A stretch of DNA of 56,840 nucleotides, taken from contig MGVC01000026.1 in the NCBI GenBank assembly GCA_001800285.1, positions 1 through 56,840 on the forward strand, in the 5' to 3' direction. The notes beneath the pieces are model-generated. The model did no database searches, was not told where the DNA came from, and saw only the letters and a list, made by a program, of their open reading frames with translations. Within the stretch, counting starts at the first letter, position 1. Every line of letters begins with the position of its first letter. Below are positions 4,044-51,238 of this stretch, one piece after another. The stretch is from Elusimicrobia bacterium RIFOXYA2_FULL_39_19. Its GTDB lineage: Bacteria > Elusimicrobiota > Endomicrobiia > CG1-02-37-114 > XYA2-FULL-39-19. Made by a program: the position numbers and the translations under genes.

Positions 4044-4517
4044 ATGAAAAACTTTTTCATCAGGACCGGACTTATCCTTTACCTGTTATGCACGGTTTCT
4101 TTTGCGGTCCGTTCAGAAGTTAACGGGGGCAATTTTGCTGTTGGGCTAAATTATCCCGGTATCGGGCTGAAGTATTTCCTGACCGACAAAATCCCCTTGG
4201 AGCTTAAAATCCAGACAGACACCAACGTAACCGTTACCGGTTTAAGAGGTTATTATTATTTCAACCCGGAAGCAAAAACACATCTTTATGCCGGGCTGGA
4301 AATGGACACCCTGTCCTTCACGGGAGAAGTAAGCAAGGGCTCGGGATTTGCCACCCTGCTATTTATCGGTGGCGAATACTTCCTTGGTAATTCTTTATCC
4401 CTGCAACTGGATATAGGACCCGCAATGATTTCCCTCTCCGACACAGACACGTCCGTATCCGTATCCGGCATGGAATTCGTTGCAAACCTTGGAATCAATT
4501 ATTATTTCGGAAGATAA
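4044..4517 (+). CDS. Small secreted beta-barrel-like protein, cassette copy 1
   Basis: This 157-aa protein has an N-terminal signal peptide (residues 1-21, cut after SFA) and then alternating short strands rich in aromatic and glycine residues, ending in INYYFGR. That pattern is typical of an eight-strand outer-membrane barrel. A clear paralogue lies at 23901-24395: both share YPGIG near the start, GxRGYYY in the middle, GGEYF and LSLQxD later, and GINYYFG at the end. Both are followed directly by a secreted protein with a related N-terminus, so the two genes probably act together. A ribosome binding site GGAGGGG lies at 4036-4042. Its job is unknown; it could be a small porin or a partner that helps its neighbour reach the surface. 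Confidence 0.75.
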   Translation: MKNFFIRTGLILYLLCTVSFAVRSEVNGGNFAVGLNYPGIGLKYFLTDKIPLELKIQTDTNVTVTGLRGYYYFNPEAKTHLYAGLEMDTLSFTGEVSKGSGFATLLFIGGEYFLGNSLSLQLDIGPAMISLSDTDTSVSVSGMEFVANLGINYYFGR

Positions 4518-4583: not shown

Positions 4584-7499
4584 ATGAAAAAATTTATCAT
4601 TTCACTGACAGCAATTATGTTTGTTTTCGGGGCGCTTTATGCCGCAGGGTTCCATTTTGGAATGCCCAGCGCCGTAAAAAGTCAGGTAAAAGAGCTGGAT
4701 ACTAAAGTAAGGGAAAAAATAGCAACCGGGACCACTGCCCTTAGCATATCCGGAACCGCGGCAAAAGGGAAACCTATAGCATCTAAAACGATAACACTCA
4801 AGGATTCAACTGGCCTATCAAAAACTACTTTAACCGGCAGCGACGGAAAATACACGCTGGATGTTACGGGCATGGCCTTTCCCCTTTTATTAAAAGTAGC
4901 TGATGACACAACAACATATTTCAGCGTGGCAAACGCATCAGGCACGTGCAATATTCACCCGTTCACCGACCTTGTTGTGAGGATGTATTTCAAGTCTTCG
5001 AAAGGTGTTTCTGATGTGAGTACCGCGTTTGACAGCAATTTTTCATCCCTGGGGCAAATACCCTCAACCGAAGTTGTAAATACCATAAAACAGGTGGTGG
5101 TAAATTTAGTGGGCTCCGTGGTGGATAAATACGGCGTGAACCCGAATACCTATGATATGTTTTCAACGCCTTTTGACGCGGACAGTTCCGGTTTTGATAA
5201 AGTATTGGAAGAAACCTCGATTGGTTATGATACTGATTTCAGCAGCGCTATAATCAGGGAAACTGCCACAAATACCGTTATTAATACTATTGCCCCGGGC
5301 GCTAATGATACAACTGCCCCCTCCGTTCCTTCAAATCTTGTTGCCGTGGGCGCAAGCGCTGGCGCAGTTCAGGTTCAATGGCTGCCTTCGCCTGAAACGG
5401 ACGTCGCGGGATATGCAATATACAGGGACAGTGTAAAAATAGCGGTTGTACCTTATACAACTTATGTTGACGGCAATCTTTCGCCAAATACACTGTATAG
5501 TTATACCGTTGAAGCCGTTGACTGGGCAGGAAACAAGTCAGCCAAAACCTCTGCCGTAACCGCCACAACGCTTACAGGCACTGACACTTCTGCGCCTACG
5601 GCCCCTTTAAACCTGCGCGCAAACGGCTTGAGTTCAACCGAGATAGCTCTCCAGTGGAACGCATGCTCTGAAACAGATGTCGCGGGATACGCAATATATA
5701 GAGATGATGTTAAAATCGCAAGCATCCTTTATACAACCTACATTGACCGCAACCTCACTTCGGGAACTACATATGCTTACAAAATAAAAGCTTATGACTA
5801 TGCAGGCAATTATTCAAATGCGAGTTCGGCTGTCCAGGCAACGCCGCTTGCCCAGGCAGATACAACCGCTCCCGCTTTACCCACTGGCGTTTCAGCGATA
5901 GCCACAAGCACAAGCACCGCTGTTATAAGCTGGACAGCATCTGTCTCTGCAGATATTGCAGGGTATTCAATATTCAGGAATGATGCGGAGATAGCCGCAG
6001 TTACAAAAACAACTTATAACGACAAAGGTCTTACACCCAACACTTCTTACAGTTACAAGATACTGGCATATGACTGGTCCGGCAATAAATCAGCCAAGAC
6101 TTCGGCCGTAACAGTATTTATCCCGGCACAAAGCGACACAACCGCTCCTTCTGCGCCGGCAAACCTTAGTGCGACCGCAACAAGTTCTACAACAGTAGTT
6201 CTGTTATGGGCAGTATCATCCGCTTCCGATCTTGCCGGGTATGCTGTTTACAGGGACGGGGCTAAAATTTCCCAGGTAACAGACAGGTCTTACACGGACA
6301 ATAATCTTACCGGGGGAACAACTTATATTTATACAGTAAAAGCTTATGACAATTCGCAAAATTATTCTTCTGCTAGTTCATCGGCTACTGTTATCATGCC
6401 GAGGCCTTTAGCACAAAGCGGAACGCCTACTATAAGCAGCGAATATACTGTTGCGTTGGCAGGAGATGAAGCTGTATGTTCAAGAGGATTAGCATTTGAC
6501 GGTACAAATTATTTGATAGCCATACAAGGAAATGGAACTACTTGTGATAACATTATTGGAAAACTTGTTAATCAATCGGGCAGTGTGGTTAAAACAGTGG
6601 ACCTTGGAGCAAACGGCGGCGCGCCTATCGTAGCGTTTGATGGAACCAAATATCTTATGGAATGGGAAAATGAAGTGGGGTCTAATGACTACGATGCATA
6701 CGGCCAGTTCATAGATACAGACGGAAATCTTTCAGGCTCAGCTTTTGCTATGGATACAGTTGGAAGCAGAGGGAATGATGCTCTAATATATGGCGGAGGA
6801 ACATACCTGTTTGTGTATGACGTGGAAGTGGATTCTAATAATTCAAGAAGCAAAGTTTACTGCAGGACAATTTCGCCGGCAGGTTCTGTGGGCAATGAAA
6901 TAGAGATTAATTCAGGTTATGGTAAGTACTGGGGAGGAGTAGCTTTTGACGGAACTAATTTTCTTATAATATGGACAGAAGATGTAGATGATTATGAAGT
7001 AAGAGGGCGTTTTGTAAGTACTTCCGGAAGCCTTGGAACTGAATTTTCCATAAATTCAAGCACGGCTCCAAGCTACAACTATAATTTTGTGACTTTTAAT
7101 GGAACAAATTACCTGGCCACCTGGCTCGATGAAGTAAGTAACGGTGTATGGGTAAGTTACAGCCAGTTTGTAAATACTTCAGGCAGCCTTGTGGGTGGTG
7201 CAATTCAAACAGGCAACGGAGTTTTTGGCGGAGATGCGTATTTAGTATTAAACTATGCAAATCAAATGACTTCATCCGCTACTATACAAGGCATATTTAT
7301 GGATACTTCCGGCAGTTATACCAGTGATTTATTTACTATATTTTCACCAATAGACGCAAAAATACCGGTAATGGGTCCGATGATTTATGACGGTTCAAGG
7401 TTTGTTATAGCACTTAGCAGGGGAACCCCTGGCGCAAATCCATATATAATAGATGATTATTTAGACATGAGCGTCTATTTAAAATTCATAACACCCTAA
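4584..7499 (+). CDS. Large secreted fibronectin type III surface protein, cassette copy 1
   Basis: The 971-aa protein starts with a signal peptide (1-20) and a short segment A-V-K-x-Q-V-K-E-L-D that also occurs in the protein at 24392-25168. Residues 50-225 hold a carboxypeptidase-regulatory-like beta domain (G-x-A-x-x-G-K-P-I) and a helical part. Four fibronectin type III domains follow at about 241-330, 334-423, 426-515 and 518-605, each opening with D-T-(T/S)-A-P and containing AGYAIYRD-like strands. The C-terminal 360 residues repeat F-D-G-T-N-Y-L strands and probably form a propeller. No enzyme motif is seen; it is most likely an adhesin or matrix-binding protein. It follows the barrel gene closely and probably shares its transcript. 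Confidence 0.82.
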   Translation: MKKFIISLTAIMFVFGALYAAGFHFGMPSAVKSQVKELDTKVREKIATGTTALSISGTAAKGKPIASKTITLKDSTGLSKTTLTGSDGKYTLDVTGMAFPLLLKVADDTTTYFSVANASGTCNIHPFTDLVVRMYFKSSKGVSDVSTAFDSNFSSLGQIPSTEVVNTIKQVVVNLVGSVVDKYGVNPNTYDMFSTPFDADSSGFDKVLEETSIGYDTDFSSAIIRETATNTVINTIAPGANDTTAPSVPSNLVAVGASAGAVQVQWLPSPETDVAGYAIYRDSVKIAVVPYTTYVDGNLSPNTLYSYTVEAVDWAGNKSAKTSAVTATTLTGTDTSAPTAPLNLRANGLSSTEIALQWNACSETDVAGYAIYRDDVKIASILYTTYIDRNLTSGTTYAYKIKAYDYAGNYSNASSAVQATPLAQADTTAPALPTGVSAIATSTSTAVISWTASVSADIAGYSIFRNDAEIAAVTKTTYNDKGLTPNTSYSYKILAYDWSGNKSAKTSAVTVFIPAQSDTTAPSAPANLSATATSSTTVVLLWAVSSASDLAGYAVYRDGAKISQVTDRSYTDNNLTGGTTYIYTVKAYDNSQNYSSASSSATVIMPRPLAQSGTPTISSEYTVALAGDEAVCSRGLAFDGTNYLIAIQGNGTTCDNIIGKLVNQSGSVVKTVDLGANGGAPIVAFDGTKYLMEWENEVGSNDYDAYGQFIDTDGNLSGSAFAMDTVGSRGNDALIYGGGTYLFVYDVEVDSNNSRSKVYCRTISPAGSVGNEIEINSGYGKYWGGVAFDGTNFLIIWTEDVDDYEVRGRFVSTSGSLGTEFSINSSTAPSYNYNFVTFNGTNYLATWLDEVSNGVWVSYSQFVNTSGSLVGGAIQTGNGVFGGDAYLVLNYANQMTSSATIQGIFMDTSGSYTSDLFTIFSPIDAKIPVMGPMIYDGSRFVIALSRGTPGANPYIIDDYLDMSVYLKFITP

Positions 7500-23900: not shown

Positions 23901-24395
23901 ATGAAACAAAAGAAAACAAATAGTAAATCCTTGAAAATTATACTCCTGCTTTTATCCATTTTCGCAGTAGCTCCTTTTTCTTACGCAGAAAGTCAGAAAT
24001 TTGCTGTAGGGGTTTATTATCCCGGCATTGGTTTCAGGTATACCCTTGCTCCAAAAATAGGCCTTGAAGCAAGGGTTCAATCCGAAGATGAAATAACCGT
24101 GATCGGTGCAAGGGGATATTATTACCTTGGAGACAAATCTAATGTGAGGCTTTTTACCGGAGCCGGATTGCATACCATCTCTTTTAAGGGAGCTTCAAGC
24201 GAAGGCACCGGGACTGCCTTGGAAGGTTTTGCCGGTGGCGAGTATTTTATTGTAGATTACCTTTCACTTCAAATGGACATGGTGCTGGCAATAATATCCC
24301 TTTTAGACACGGCCCATTCAATTACTGAAAGCGGTGGCGAGTTTACATATAGCATCGGGATAAATTATTATTTCGGAATAGGTATAGAAAAATGA
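23901..24395 (+). CDS. Small secreted beta-barrel-like protein, cassette copy 2
   Basis: This 164-aa paralogue of the protein at 4044-4517 has a signal peptide (about 1-29, ending SYAES), a short barrel-like body with FAVGVYYPGIGFRY, GARGYYYLG, GGEYFIVDYLSLQMD and the terminal GINYYFGIG. Similarity to copy 1 runs over the whole mature part. Its stop codon overlaps the start of the next gene by four bases, so the two proteins are translationally coupled. That coupling, seen again next to a similar barrel gene 20 kb away, argues for a joint function such as surface display or export of the second protein. Confidence 0.75.
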   Translation: MKQKKTNSKSLKIILLLLSIFAVAPFSYAESQKFAVGVYYPGIGFRYTLAPKIGLEARVQSEDEITVIGARGYYYLGDKSNVRLFTGAGLHTISFKGASSEGTGTALEGFAGGEYFIVDYLSLQMDMVLAIISLLDTAHSITESGGEFTYSIGINYYFGIGIEK

Positions 24396-25168
24396 GAAAA
24401 ATACTTTTAGGCTTAATGGTTCTTGCCCTTGCCTCATCAACCATTTGGGCTCTTGGCCTTACTGGTGCGATAAAGAAGAAAGTAAGAGAACTGGATTCAA
24501 GGACAACAACAACTGTTTTTAATACTGTTGACAATTATACAGGAAAAACGGATTTAGATATTAGTGATAGTTATTTAGAAAGTATACTTATTTCTTCCGG
24601 AACTGACCCACAAGGTGATTTTGAAGATCCAGTAAGCGGGACTCCTCCAACAGGTGTAACAAATTATCCCCCGAGTGACCTTGTAAGAATAGATATCGGT
24701 TCTGATGGAACATATTTGTATGTTAGATGGAATCTTGCAGGAACAATTCCATCTGATTTAGCATTATTGAGCGATAATGGATATATTCACATTGTGAGTC
24801 TTACTGTTTCAATAGATTCTGATAACAATTCAGCCACAGGTCTGACCGCAAGCAAAACATTGGGTGCAGAAGCGGGATTAGTTTCAAAAGTATGGTATTA
24901 TGCGAGTGACAACATTGTGAGTAACTCATATTTTTGGTGCAAACCTGACAACGAAAACAATACCTTTCAAATTTATGGAGATGCTGAAATAGTACGTTAT
25001 GGCCAAGGACGTAACTATCTTGTGTCGAGATATAAACTGTTGGAATTAGAAATTGCCAATAATTCAACAATAAAAATCTGCGGGGGGCAGGTCGAAGTGG
25101 AAAGCACAAATTATCATCATTATTCTTATGATTGTTTTGATTCATCTTTTACTTATATAGTTAAATAG
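24392..25168 (+). CDS. Secreted protein with shared leader segment, cassette copy 2
   Basis: The 258-aa protein has a signal peptide (1-20), then A-I-K-K-K-V-R-E-L-D-S-R, which corresponds to the A-V-K-S-Q-V-K-E-L-D-T-K of the 971-aa protein at 4584. The rest is a beta-rich body (about 45-258) with YLYVRWNLAG and SIDSDNNSATG, somewhat like a family 9 carbohydrate-binding or DOMON fold; I would not name it. It contains no fibronectin domains, so the two cassette partners share only the leader segment. It overlaps the barrel gene by four bases. Confidence 0.7.
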   Translation: MRKILLGLMVLALASSTIWALGLTGAIKKKVRELDSRTTTTVFNTVDNYTGKTDLDISDSYLESILISSGTDPQGDFEDPVSGTPPTGVTNYPPSDLVRIDIGSDGTYLYVRWNLAGTIPSDLALLSDNGYIHIVSLTVSIDSDNNSATGLTASKTLGAEAGLVSKVWYYASDNIVSNSYFWCKPDNENNTFQIYGDAEIVRYGQGRNYLVSRYKLLELEIANNSTIKICGGQVEVESTNYHHYSYDCFDSSFTYIVK

Positions 25169-48401: not shown

Positions 48402-48701
48402 TTATTTAGATTGGCTGGTATTTTGATTTGCCTGAGCTTTCGAGTCCGGAAAAATAATGCCTATACCAATAATAATGTAAGCAGCTATTATCATAAAAGG
48501 CGAAATTACGCCCGCCCAGTTTTGACCATAAGAATCAGTTTTTGAAAGCACAAAAAAACCAAGTAAGAGGAGTAAAATACCGGAAAAAATTACCTTTTTC
48601 CCCCTGCCTGATATCCCCGTTACAGGTTTTACCTGAATAACCGGTGCCTGCTGATGATGGGCCTGCTGTTTATGCTGGTTTTTCTTATCTTTGTGCTTCA
48701 T
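48402..48701 (-). CDS. Small two-helix membrane protein
   Basis: The 99-aa protein has a basic, Gln/His-rich start (about 1-35), two membrane helices (around 38-53 and 67-85) and a short polar tail. No family name is known to me. It is the last gene of the long minus-strand operon, three bases after the receiver-protein gene, so it may act with it. Confidence 0.7.
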   Translation of the reverse strand: MKHKDKKNQHKQQAHHQQAPVIQVKPVTGISGRGKKVIFSGILLLLLGFFVLSKTDSYGQNWAGVISPFMIIAAYIIIGIGIIFPDSKAQANQNTSQSK

Positions 48702-48704
48702 TTA

Positions 48705-50765
48705 TTATACCTTTTTGAATGCATCAATATTGAATTCGTATATGTTAGCTCCCAGAGAATTAAGCTCAGAAATTTTACCGGCAAATACATTATAATCTAC
48801 CGCAAAAACACTTGTGGTGCCGAAAATATCCGTTAGAACATTTACTTCTTGAGAATTCATTTCTAAACCAACAGCTATAACAAGGATAGTTTTATTGTCT
48901 GCTCCAGGCCTTTTCTCTATGATTTTGCCGTTAGAAAACACTATTATCAAATCTTTTATGGATATACCTGTTATACCGTAATACTTCGTTAAAGGAGCCT
49001 TTTCTGCGCTATTCTGGGTATATATCTGTACAGGAGCCTGATACAAAGGCTCCGGCGTTTTTGCCGTTTCTGCTGATGCTTTAATAAATATATCAGGAAG
49101 CTTCACACTATCTTCATCTTCTTCAGGTTCCTGTGGCGGCTCAGGGGTTGGCTCCGGAATATCCAGTGCCTGACGGGCTCTCTGTTCCAGTTTTTCAGAA
49201 AATGCTTTCATCATGTCAGCACTGCCAAACTGTACTGTTTTCTCAGCAATAGGCGAATCTTCGCTTTTAGAATCCTGTGCTTCAGGGATAAATTCCGGTG
49301 TCTGGCCTAAATTAATATCGGGTTGAGTAACCGGAGGCTGTTCTTCCTGCGGAAATAATGACGAAACAGATGCTTGCATAGTTGATTCAAAAGGCGATGC
49401 ATCTCCTGACGGCTGTTCTTCACTTCTGGTATCCGGCTGAGGAGTTTCAGAAACTTCAGCATTAGCCTCAGCGGGATCTTTTGTAAGAAACTGCATAGTA
49501 TCTTCAGGATTTTTATTTTCAAACACTGAATCAATGTTTTCTTTATTAAAAGCCGCAAGATCACCCGGAGAAAGTATTACGGTTTTTTCTACTGCATCTT
49601 CTTTTTGCGGCTCTTGTACGGGATCTTCCGTTTTAAACGGATCTGATTTCATTTGAATTGTCGATTCAGCACTAAACACATCGGTGCTGCGGGGCTGTGC
49701 TTTAAAGGGATTTATTGGAAGATCATTAGGTGAAAGAACTACTGTTTTTTCTGCTTCAGGCGTTTTAAAAGGGCTTGAAGGCAGGTCATTGAATGCATCA
49801 GCATTCATATGTATAGTTGATTCAGTTTTGGGTGCTTCCGGTTTTGGCCGTTCAAATGGATTAATCGGCAAATCGTTTGGATTCATGACTACTGTTTTTT
49901 CTACATCTGATATTTTTGGAGAGGCCTTAAAAGGGCTCGGAGGTAAATCATTAAATACATCAGAATTCATTTGTATTGTGGATTCAGTTTTGGGTGCTTC
50001 CGGTTTTGGCCGTTCAAATGGATTCATCGGTAAATCGTTAGGATTCATAACTACTGTTTTTTCAACATCCGATATTTTTGGAACGGATTTAAAAGGGCTC
50101 ATCGGCAGATCATTGAATGTTTCCGCGTTCATTTGTATTGTTGATTCTGCTTTAGGTACTTCAGCAGGTTTTGGCTGTTCAAATGGATTTATAGGCAAAT
50201 CGTTCGGATTCATAACTACTGTTTTTTCAACATCTCCGGTTTTCGACGCACCTTTAAAAAAAGGAAGCTGAACCGTTGATTCTGTAACAGGCATATCAGC
50301 TGAGTTTCTTAATCTGGGTCCGCCAAAATGGCTGGTAGGCAGATCTCCGGGAGCCAGTACTACAGTTTTTTCTGAACCGCCTACTTTAGGCGTAGGATTA
50401 TCACCCTGATTTAAATCACTGAATATATTTTTAACAATGGAAAGAACGTTTTTTTCATCAAACGGCTTCATAATAAAATCTTTAATAAAAACCTTAATGG
50501 GTGTTTCTCTGTCAATTTTCGAATCAATAAGCATCACTATGGGAACATTTACGCATTCCACGGTGTTCTTTAGTTTTGGTATTATTTCAATTGCCTGAAG
50601 TTTATTGTCAAACAAAATAAGATCCGGCTTGAAAGATGAAGCCATACTGAAAGCATGTTTTCCGTCTTCCGCTTCCATTACTTCAAAATCAATTTTTTCC
50701 AGAAATATTTTCAGCAGATTACGCAATTCCCACTCGTCTTCTGCTATAAGTACTCTTCTTGCCAT
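48705..50765 (-). CDS. Receiver-domain protein with tandem E-x-T repeat region
   Basis: The 686-aa protein starts with a response-regulator receiver domain (1-118; acidic pocket E9/D10, phospho-acceptor D53, conserved lysine K100 in IMKPFD). From about 130 to 515 it is proline-rich and disordered, and repeats a unit of about 54 residues. The units contain EKTV at 132, 180, 235, 289, 339, 393 and 508 and E-(S/D)-T-(I/V/M)-(Q/H) at 162, 207, 261, 315, 367, 421 and 460. Each threonine is followed by a hydrophobic residue at +1 and nearly always L, M or F at +3. The last 110 residues (575-686) form an alpha/beta domain I cannot name. There is no DNA-binding output domain. Ribosome binding site GGAGG is ideal. 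Confidence 0.85.
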   Translation of the reverse strand: MARRVLIAEDEWELRNLLKIFLEKIDFEVMEAEDGKHAFSMASSFKPDLILFDNKLQAIEIIPKLKNTVECVNVPIVMLIDSKIDRETPIKVFIKDFIMKPFDEKNVLSIVKNIFSDLNQGDNPTPKVGGSEKTVVLAPGDLPTSHFGGPRLRNSADMPVTESTVQLPFFKGASKTGDVEKTVVMNPNDLPINPFEQPKPAEVPKAESTIQMNAETFNDLPMSPFKSVPKISDVEKTVVMNPNDLPMNPFERPKPEAPKTESTIQMNSDVFNDLPPSPFKASPKISDVEKTVVMNPNDLPINPFERPKPEAPKTESTIHMNADAFNDLPSSPFKTPEAEKTVVLSPNDLPINPFKAQPRSTDVFSAESTIQMKSDPFKTEDPVQEPQKEDAVEKTVILSPGDLAAFNKENIDSVFENKNPEDTMQFLTKDPAEANAEVSETPQPDTRSEEQPSGDASPFESTMQASVSSLFPQEEQPPVTQPDINLGQTPEFIPEAQDSKSEDSPIAEKTVQFGSADMMKAFSEKLEQRARQALDIPEPTPEPPQEPEEDEDSVKLPDIFIKASAETAKTPEPLYQAPVQIYTQNSAEKAPLTKYYGITGISIKDLIIVFSNGKIIEKRPGADNKTILVIAVGLEMNSQEVNVLTDIFGTTSVFAVDYNVFAGKISELNSLGANIYEFNIDAFKKV

Positions 50766-50791: not shown

Positions 50792-51238
50792 TTAATTGTC
50801 CTGTTTCTGTTCAAAATTTCTTTTGTCAACAATATACTTTAACTCATCCATCAGCTGAGGATTGCCTGATATCTGATCCTGAAAGGTATCTTTGAAAAGC
50901 ACAAATAGTTCTATCGGTTCAGAGGCTATTACCGTAGCACTGCAGGGATGGTCGGTTACCAGGGACATTTCACCGAAGAAACTTCCCGGCCCGAGCTCTG
51001 TAACCATTTTCTTGCCGAATAAACCTTTTTTCTTCCAGACCTGCACCTTACCCTTAAAGAGTATGTAAAAAGCTCTGCCTTCTCCGCCTTCTTTTATAAT
51101 TACTTTATCTTTCGGATAATCGTATTTTTCTATTCTTTTTACCAAGGTTTCAATATTGGAGAGGTTGAATGACTGGAAAAAATTAATGTTTCTTAATGAC
51201 TGGAACAACCATCTGGTTTCTTCTTCATTGATTGCCAT
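50792..51238 (-). CDS. Single-domain cyclic-nucleotide-binding-like protein
   Basis: The 148-aa protein is one CRP-type beta barrel with flanking helices and no DNA-binding part. The phosphate-binding cassette reads FGEMSLVTDHPCSATV; the arginine that normally contacts the cyclic phosphate (P-R-S-A) is cysteine here, so ordinary cAMP or cGMP binding is doubtful. It is encoded 16 bases after htpX and 26 bases before the receiver protein, and may work as a sensor with it. An AAGGGGG ribosome binding site is present. Confidence 0.88.
   Translation of the reverse strand: MAINEEETRWLFQSLRNINFFQSFNLSNIETLVKRIEKYDYPKDKVIIKEGGEGRAFYILFKGKVQVWKKKGLFGKKMVTELGPGSFFGEMSLVTDHPCSATVIASEPIELFVLFKDTFQDQISGNPQLMDELKYIVDKRNFEQKQDN

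Follow-up and report, generated by a model that had tools for sequence, protein, structure and literature searches.

A receiver-domain protein with fourteen threonine motifs in an Elusimicrobiota bacterium, a candidate multisite docking scaffold for an FHA protein

Genes and domains at the locus

The stretch of DNA analysed here (the window) comprises 56,840 nt of contig MGVC01000026.1 from Elusimicrobia bacterium RIFOXYA2_FULL_39_19 (assembly GCA_001800285.1). Its reverse strand carries a gene for a protein that combines a receiver domain, a linker bearing an array of threonine motifs and a C-terminal domain (Table 1). The linker (residues 126-590) is rich in Pro, Glu, Ser, Lys and Thr and has pLDDT values below 50 almost throughout in the full-length AlphaFold model. 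With only four sequences to draw on, this model is poor, and the low values are therefore weak evidence of disorder. The C-terminal domain, which the original prediction called unknown, indeed matches no Pfam family and no PDB fold at E ≤ 0.001, and it is kept in both orthologues of the protein, from the related genomes G001 and G002. Directly downstream of the gene (48402-48701) is an ORF for a 99-aa His/Gln/Lys-rich, two-helix membrane-type protein that lacks a Pfam match.

The receiver domain had been described as normal, a description that has to be revised. Residues 5-111 score above the cut-off of the Response_reg family model (45.4 bits against 30.2), and alignment to receivers in the PDB identifies the phospho-acceptor D53 and the conserved K100. 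However, the switch Thr expected after β4 of a classical phospho-switch is replaced by Ile (VMLID compared with VMLTA), both in this protein and in the two orthologues, and the β3-α3 loop that follows the phospho-acceptor is three residues shorter. A homologue in a further genome, G006, retains the switch Thr and a full-length loop. Since the switch Thr is replaced and the loop is shortened, a classical phospho-switch is doubtful, and the receiver is unlikely, judging from these residues, to act as one. No histidine kinase gene lies beside the receiver gene. Together with the missing switch Thr, this weakens the two-component side of the scaffold first proposed, which was to join two-component and Ser/Thr-kinase signalling, whereas its phospho-threonine docking side fared better, as set out below.

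Elsewhere in the window, two gene pairs (4044-4517 with 4584-7499, and 23901-24395 with 24392-25168) look by eye like paralogues, each with a gene for a small outer-membrane-like protein ahead of one for a secreted protein that starts with a K-x-V-[KR]-E-L-D segment. At the window edge, a 444-aa ORF (93-1427) resembles, again by eye, an IS1380-type transposase.

Table 1. Coordinates, in the window, of the receiver protein gene, its encoded features and the upstream gene
Feature	Position	Strand	Basis
686-aa receiver/motif-array/C-terminal-domain protein gene	48705..50765	-	ORF; syntenic orthologues in G001, G002
Atypical receiver domain, residues 1-125	50391..50765	-	Pfam Response_reg 1.1e-11; alignment to PDB receivers, homologues
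Disordered motif array, residues 132-513, 7 EKTV + 7 E[SD]T[VIM]	49227..50372	-	Low pLDDT; profile; background rate
Class A EKTVVL, residue 132	50355..50372	-	
Class B ESTVQL, residue 162	50265..50282	-	
Class A EKTVVM, residue 180	50211..50228	-	
Class B ESTIQM, residue 207	50130..50147	-	
Class A EKTVVM, residue 235	50046..50063	-	
Class B ESTIQM, residue 261	49968..49985	-	
Class A EKTVVM, residue 289	49884..49901	-	
Class B ESTIHM, residue 315	49806..49823	-	
Class A EKTVVL, residue 339	49734..49751	-	
Class B ESTIQM, residue 367	49650..49667	-	
Class A EKTVIL, residue 393	49572..49589	-	
Class B EDTMQF, residue 421	49488..49505	-	
Class B ESTMQA, residue 460	49371..49388	-	
Class A EKTVQF, residue 508	49227..49244	-	
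Clean 162-bp tandem repeat, 2.9 copies	49765..50235	-	
C-terminal alpha/beta domain, residues 590-686	48708..48998	-	AlphaFold2 pLDDT 77, pTM 0.69
148-aa cNMP-binding-type protein, upstream of receiver gene	50792..51238	-	Pfam PF00027

The motif array and its conservation in relatives

As originally reported, fourteen E-x-T motifs lie between the receiver and the C-terminal domain, seven of the form EKTV (class A) and seven of the form E[SD]T (class B). Their start-to-start distance is mostly 24-30 residues, with a range of 18-48. A recount bore out the stated preferences around the Thr: position +1 is V, I or M in all fourteen, and position +3 is L, M or F in thirteen, the exception being ESTMQA. 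Class A motifs have V or I at +2 in six of seven cases (EKTVQF has Gln) and L, M or F at +3 throughout, whereas class B motifs carry Gln or His at +2 and thus follow the FHA-ligand pattern (Glu at -2, hydrophobic residues at +2 and +3) in part only. The motif Thr is never exchanged for Ser or any other residue in the fourteen units; the linker contains 18 further Thr residues outside the motif. Between the Thr motifs, the linker also repeats another element, DLPxxxF, eight times, mostly as DLPx[NS]PF.

Linker composition does not account for the array. When the linker was shuffled 100,000 times, E-x-T-[VIM] occurred 0.44 times on average and at most 6 times, compared with 14 observed; when L, M or F was also demanded at +3, the mean was 0.056 and the maximum 3, compared with 13 observed. 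The background rate of the motif in 892 other proteins is 0.10 per 1000 aa, which gives an expectation of 0.05 in the linker. The shuffles and the background rate rule out a chance product of a Pro/Glu/Ser/Thr-rich sequence.

Both orthologues, which occupy the same gene neighbourhood, retain the motif. The G001 protein (353 aa) has four copies (EKTVVL, EKTLVL, ELTIQV and EATIQG), of which three match strictly, a number reached in 3 of 20000 shuffles; the G002 protein (416 aa) has seven variants, one of them ERTSVF, with six strict matches, a number reached in none of 20000 shuffles. A search of 248 genomes of the phylum turned up no other full-length orthologue, and named genomes scanned for the receiver protein gave no match. 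The expectation that the repeats would be conserved in close relatives therefore holds for the motif and not for the number of units, and the suggestion that this number can change is borne out between species, which have 4, 7 and 14 motifs.

The 162-bp (54-residue) tandem repeat noted at the outset is real, yet it accounts for about three units and not for the whole array, since elsewhere the Thr motif recurs in diverged spacers. Within the motifs, the Thr codon varies synonymously (ACA, ACT, ACC and ACG). As the motif codons differ in this way, the motif is preserved at the protein level and not merely through a young DNA duplication. The regularity could nevertheless merely reflect a recent copying of the DNA for a disordered linker, the tandem duplication being neutral and functionless; the genuine tandem and the different motif numbers in relatives would fit. 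We regard this explanation as very improbable: the tandem spans only part of the array, the residues of the motif have stayed constant while its codons diverged, and diverged copies exceed chance in both orthologues. The synonymous divergence and the orthologues likewise disfavour a purely recent DNA duplication.

The motif in FHA and kinase linkers

Absence of FHA proteins or Ser/Thr kinases from the genome had been named as evidence against phospho-threonine docking. Both are present: the genome has a single FHA gene and two genes for Ser/Thr kinases. The FHA gene forms a cassette on contig C63 with genes for a PP2C, a CHASE2 Ser/Thr kinase and a cyclic-nucleotide-binding-type protein; the second kinase, on contig C2, is fused to a cyclic-nucleotide-binding-type domain. 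The FHA protein has an N-terminal FHA domain with GarA as its best match among PDB chains (3.3e-7), and the pocket residues R30, S44, H47, T65 and N66 are invariant. Inspected by eye, its C-terminal half resembles a degenerate second FHA domain (L004:2269-3027); Pfam reports the first only. The cassette and the receiver gene are on different contigs, which counts against the scaffold reading. A weak and circumstantial tie between the array gene and the cassette is provided by the cNMP-type protein encoded directly upstream of the receiver gene, a paralogue of the cassette cNMP protein (28% identity, E 6e-17); a small cNMP-type protein is found nearby in 12 of 80 sister cassettes.

The linkers of the cassette proteins, though variable elsewhere, contain the array motif or a related form of it. 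In the FHA protein, DKTVVL lies shortly after the FHA domain, and its Thr is the sole invariant column of this linker in seven members of the class. The cassette CHASE2 kinase has GDTVIM in its juxta-kinase linker, ahead of the kinase domain; kinases of this class have GDTVIM- or EGTVIM-like linkers in which T-V-I is invariant across ten members. We compared 80 cassette loci from Elusimicrobiota, Nitrospirota and Deltaproteobacteria, and across these three groups [ED]xT[hydrophobic] is retained in 66 of the 80 FHA linkers and a similar motif in 52 of 64 kinase linkers.

Of these FHA linkers, 48, all from other genomes and none from the receiver protein family, were used to build a profile. Among 1293 proteins, some of them overlapping, the receiver protein ranked first for multiple matches, with five, and its G002 orthologue had three. 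Class B motifs (with Gln at +2) and two class A motifs fell below the profile threshold, and position -2 is Asp in 40 of the 48 linkers as opposed to Glu in the array; both points count against the scaffold reading. The only other protein with multiple matches was the kinase of the sister cassette L133, whose C-terminal tail contains DKTVVL three times and DKTIVM once; a shorter form of this array is present in the L137 kinase, and the L114 and L134 kinase tails have pairs of [ED]ETLVL. All four (L133:1994-6163, also L137, L114 and L134) are CHASE2 kinases of other Elusimicrobiota with long disordered C-terminal tails in which [ED]xT[VIL]V[LM]SPG is repeated. The L133 FHA protein, which adjoins the array-tailed kinase, has lost its own linker motif.

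Such tails are one reason to ask whether the motifs are sites for the kinase only, used as kinase substrates or docking sites in a multisite phosphorylation counter or a bulk charge switch that involves no FHA binding. The similar motif in the juxta-kinase linker of the kinase itself, as a kinase consensus would predict, points the same way. We consider this explanation unlikely given that the FHA linker motif keeps the same position across three bacterial groups and resembles structurally proven FHA ligands, among them that of DgcB, where the hydrophobic +3 residue enters the FHA cleft. Slightly less probable still is a role independent of phosphorylation, in which the EKTV, EST and DLPxxPF elements would be recognised by another protein, the C-terminal domain acting in trans being one example, or would let the protein associate weakly with itself. 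The copies of DLPxxxF between the Thr motifs and the poor fit of class B motifs to the FHA-linker profile favour such a role; the unchanged Thr in every unit, and a Thr motif common to the FHA and kinase linkers of one cassette, speak against it.

Clients in the same genome were sought with the patterns [ED]KTV[VI], [ED]xTV[VI][LMI] and EST[VI]Q. Most other matches were discarded as clients, lying in structured proteins or off-frame, and the only accessible-looking matches of these pattern searches beyond the array were those in the FHA linker and an ERTVIM in a C-terminal tail (L210). The latter belongs to a 454-aa protein (L210:196-1557), DEAD-box helicase-like by eye, which carries the Thr motif in its basic tail, QPSERTVIMNNFRRSRGPIRRR, and is possibly, to judge from this motif, a further FHA client.

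Co-occurrence of the motif with FHA proteins was compared in four genomes. The G006 homologue of the receiver protein is motif-free, and neither an FHA nor a Ser/Thr kinase domain was detected in that genome (95% complete). In G002, no FHA protein or kinase was detected though the motifs are present, which counts against the scaffold reading; this assembly is 79% complete.

A candidate multisite docking platform

The array resembles known FHA ligands in several, though not all, positions. The ligand of the Bdellovibrio DgcB FHA domain is LEKpTSIV, with the +3 residue entering the FHA cleft in the crystal structure, and the tails of DgcB, GarA and OdhI have in common a hydrophobic residue at -3, Glu at -2, Ser at +1 and hydrophobic residues at +2 and +3 (PMC6733907). 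The phosphorylation site of GarA is ETTS (PMC5448819), and a review of peptide specificity notes that the FHA +3 rule is not absolute (PMC4037201). The array has Glu at -2, Thr at 0 and a hydrophobic +3 in common with GarA and OdhI, whose ETTS tail is phosphorylated by a Ser/Thr kinase and recognised by an FHA domain, and it shares with DgcB the EKT core and hydrophobic residues at +2 and +3. The Ser at +1 of GarA, OdhI and DgcB is absent from the array, and this counts against the scaffold reading; the ERTSVF of the G002 orthologue does have Ser there. The cassette FHA protein, with a motif in its own linker, can be likened to GarA with its own tail, except that the motif follows the FHA domain and in GarA and OdhI precedes it. 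The array itself differs from GarA and OdhI in being a separate protein with fourteen sites and a receiver domain, and from DgcB, where one site acts in cis and controls a diguanylate cyclase.

The cassette also recalls the PpkA/PppA/Fha module of type VI secretion, likewise a Ser/Thr kinase, a PP2C-type phosphatase and an FHA protein, for which clustering via condensate formation has been reported (PMC12607579). Two things differ from that module: the kinase here is equipped with a CHASE2 sensor, and the module contains nothing that corresponds to the array protein. In Mycobacterium tuberculosis, the FHA ABC transporter Rv1747 forms phosphorylation-dependent clusters through its FHA domains and a phosphorylated linker (PMC9312465). 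Its FHA domains and sites reside in one membrane protein, unlike the array, which belongs to a protein distinct from the FHA protein. Eukaryotic multisite docking scaffolds include MDC1, with TQxF sites for the FHA domain of RNF8, and KNL1, with MELT arrays. In both, a disordered region repeats a short Thr motif, and each copy docks a partner in a phospho-dependent manner, but their sequences are unrelated to the array; the receiver protein scored 17.1 bits with the Pfam MELT model, below the cut-off of 30, so the likeness is one of analogy only. FHA tails, kinase/phosphatase/FHA trios and phosphorylation-driven clustering (Rv1747, PpkA/Fha) are each already known singly. In the open-access literature searched, neither this array nor any 14-site array borne by a separate protein with a receiver domain is reported, and nothing was found on FHA signalling in Elusimicrobiota.

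Because the FHA protein shares the array motif and the kinase beside it has a related one, the receiver protein is probably a multisite docking platform on which FHA proteins assemble once the kinase is active. We put the probability that it is a multisite phospho-threonine scaffold recruiting the sole FHA protein at about 0.68. Docking at phospho-threonine, the core of the original prediction, is well supported by comparison with cassette linker motifs across phyla and by likeness to solved ligands; phosphorylation, binding and clustering of the array are what we infer from the sequences. Either the CHASE2 kinase or the kinase with the cNMP domain would phosphorylate the linker at E-x-T-[VIM]-x-[LMF] sites, whereupon the FHA protein, itself the bearer of one such site, would dock on them. 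The number of sites would determine how many FHA molecules come together in one place, so that recruitment could be graded or clustered; removal of the phospho-threonine marks would fall to the PP2C of the cassette. The receiver and C-terminal domains may supply location or partner binding. Class B motifs, which fit less well, may have a lower affinity for the cassette FHA domain or serve a different partner. More tentatively, the receiver protein may build multivalent assemblies or condensates, tuned by phosphorylation, with an FHA protein dedicated to it, and Elusimicrobiota lineages may repeatedly have derived such arrays from the FHA/kinase motif, here on the receiver protein and elsewhere on the L133, L137, L114 and L134 kinase tails.

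In bacteria, the known FHA partners usually offer a single site, as in GarA, OdhI and DgcB. If the scaffold reading is true, fourteen sites on a separate protein would give bacteria an equivalent of the eukaryotic multisite docking scaffolds, and the proteins with 4, 7 and 14 motifs would offer a natural series for relating site number to recruitment or clustering. The short motif would also serve as a handle by which partners of kinase/PP2C/FHA cassettes in Elusimicrobiota, Nitrospirota and Deltaproteobacteria may be sought from sequence alone.
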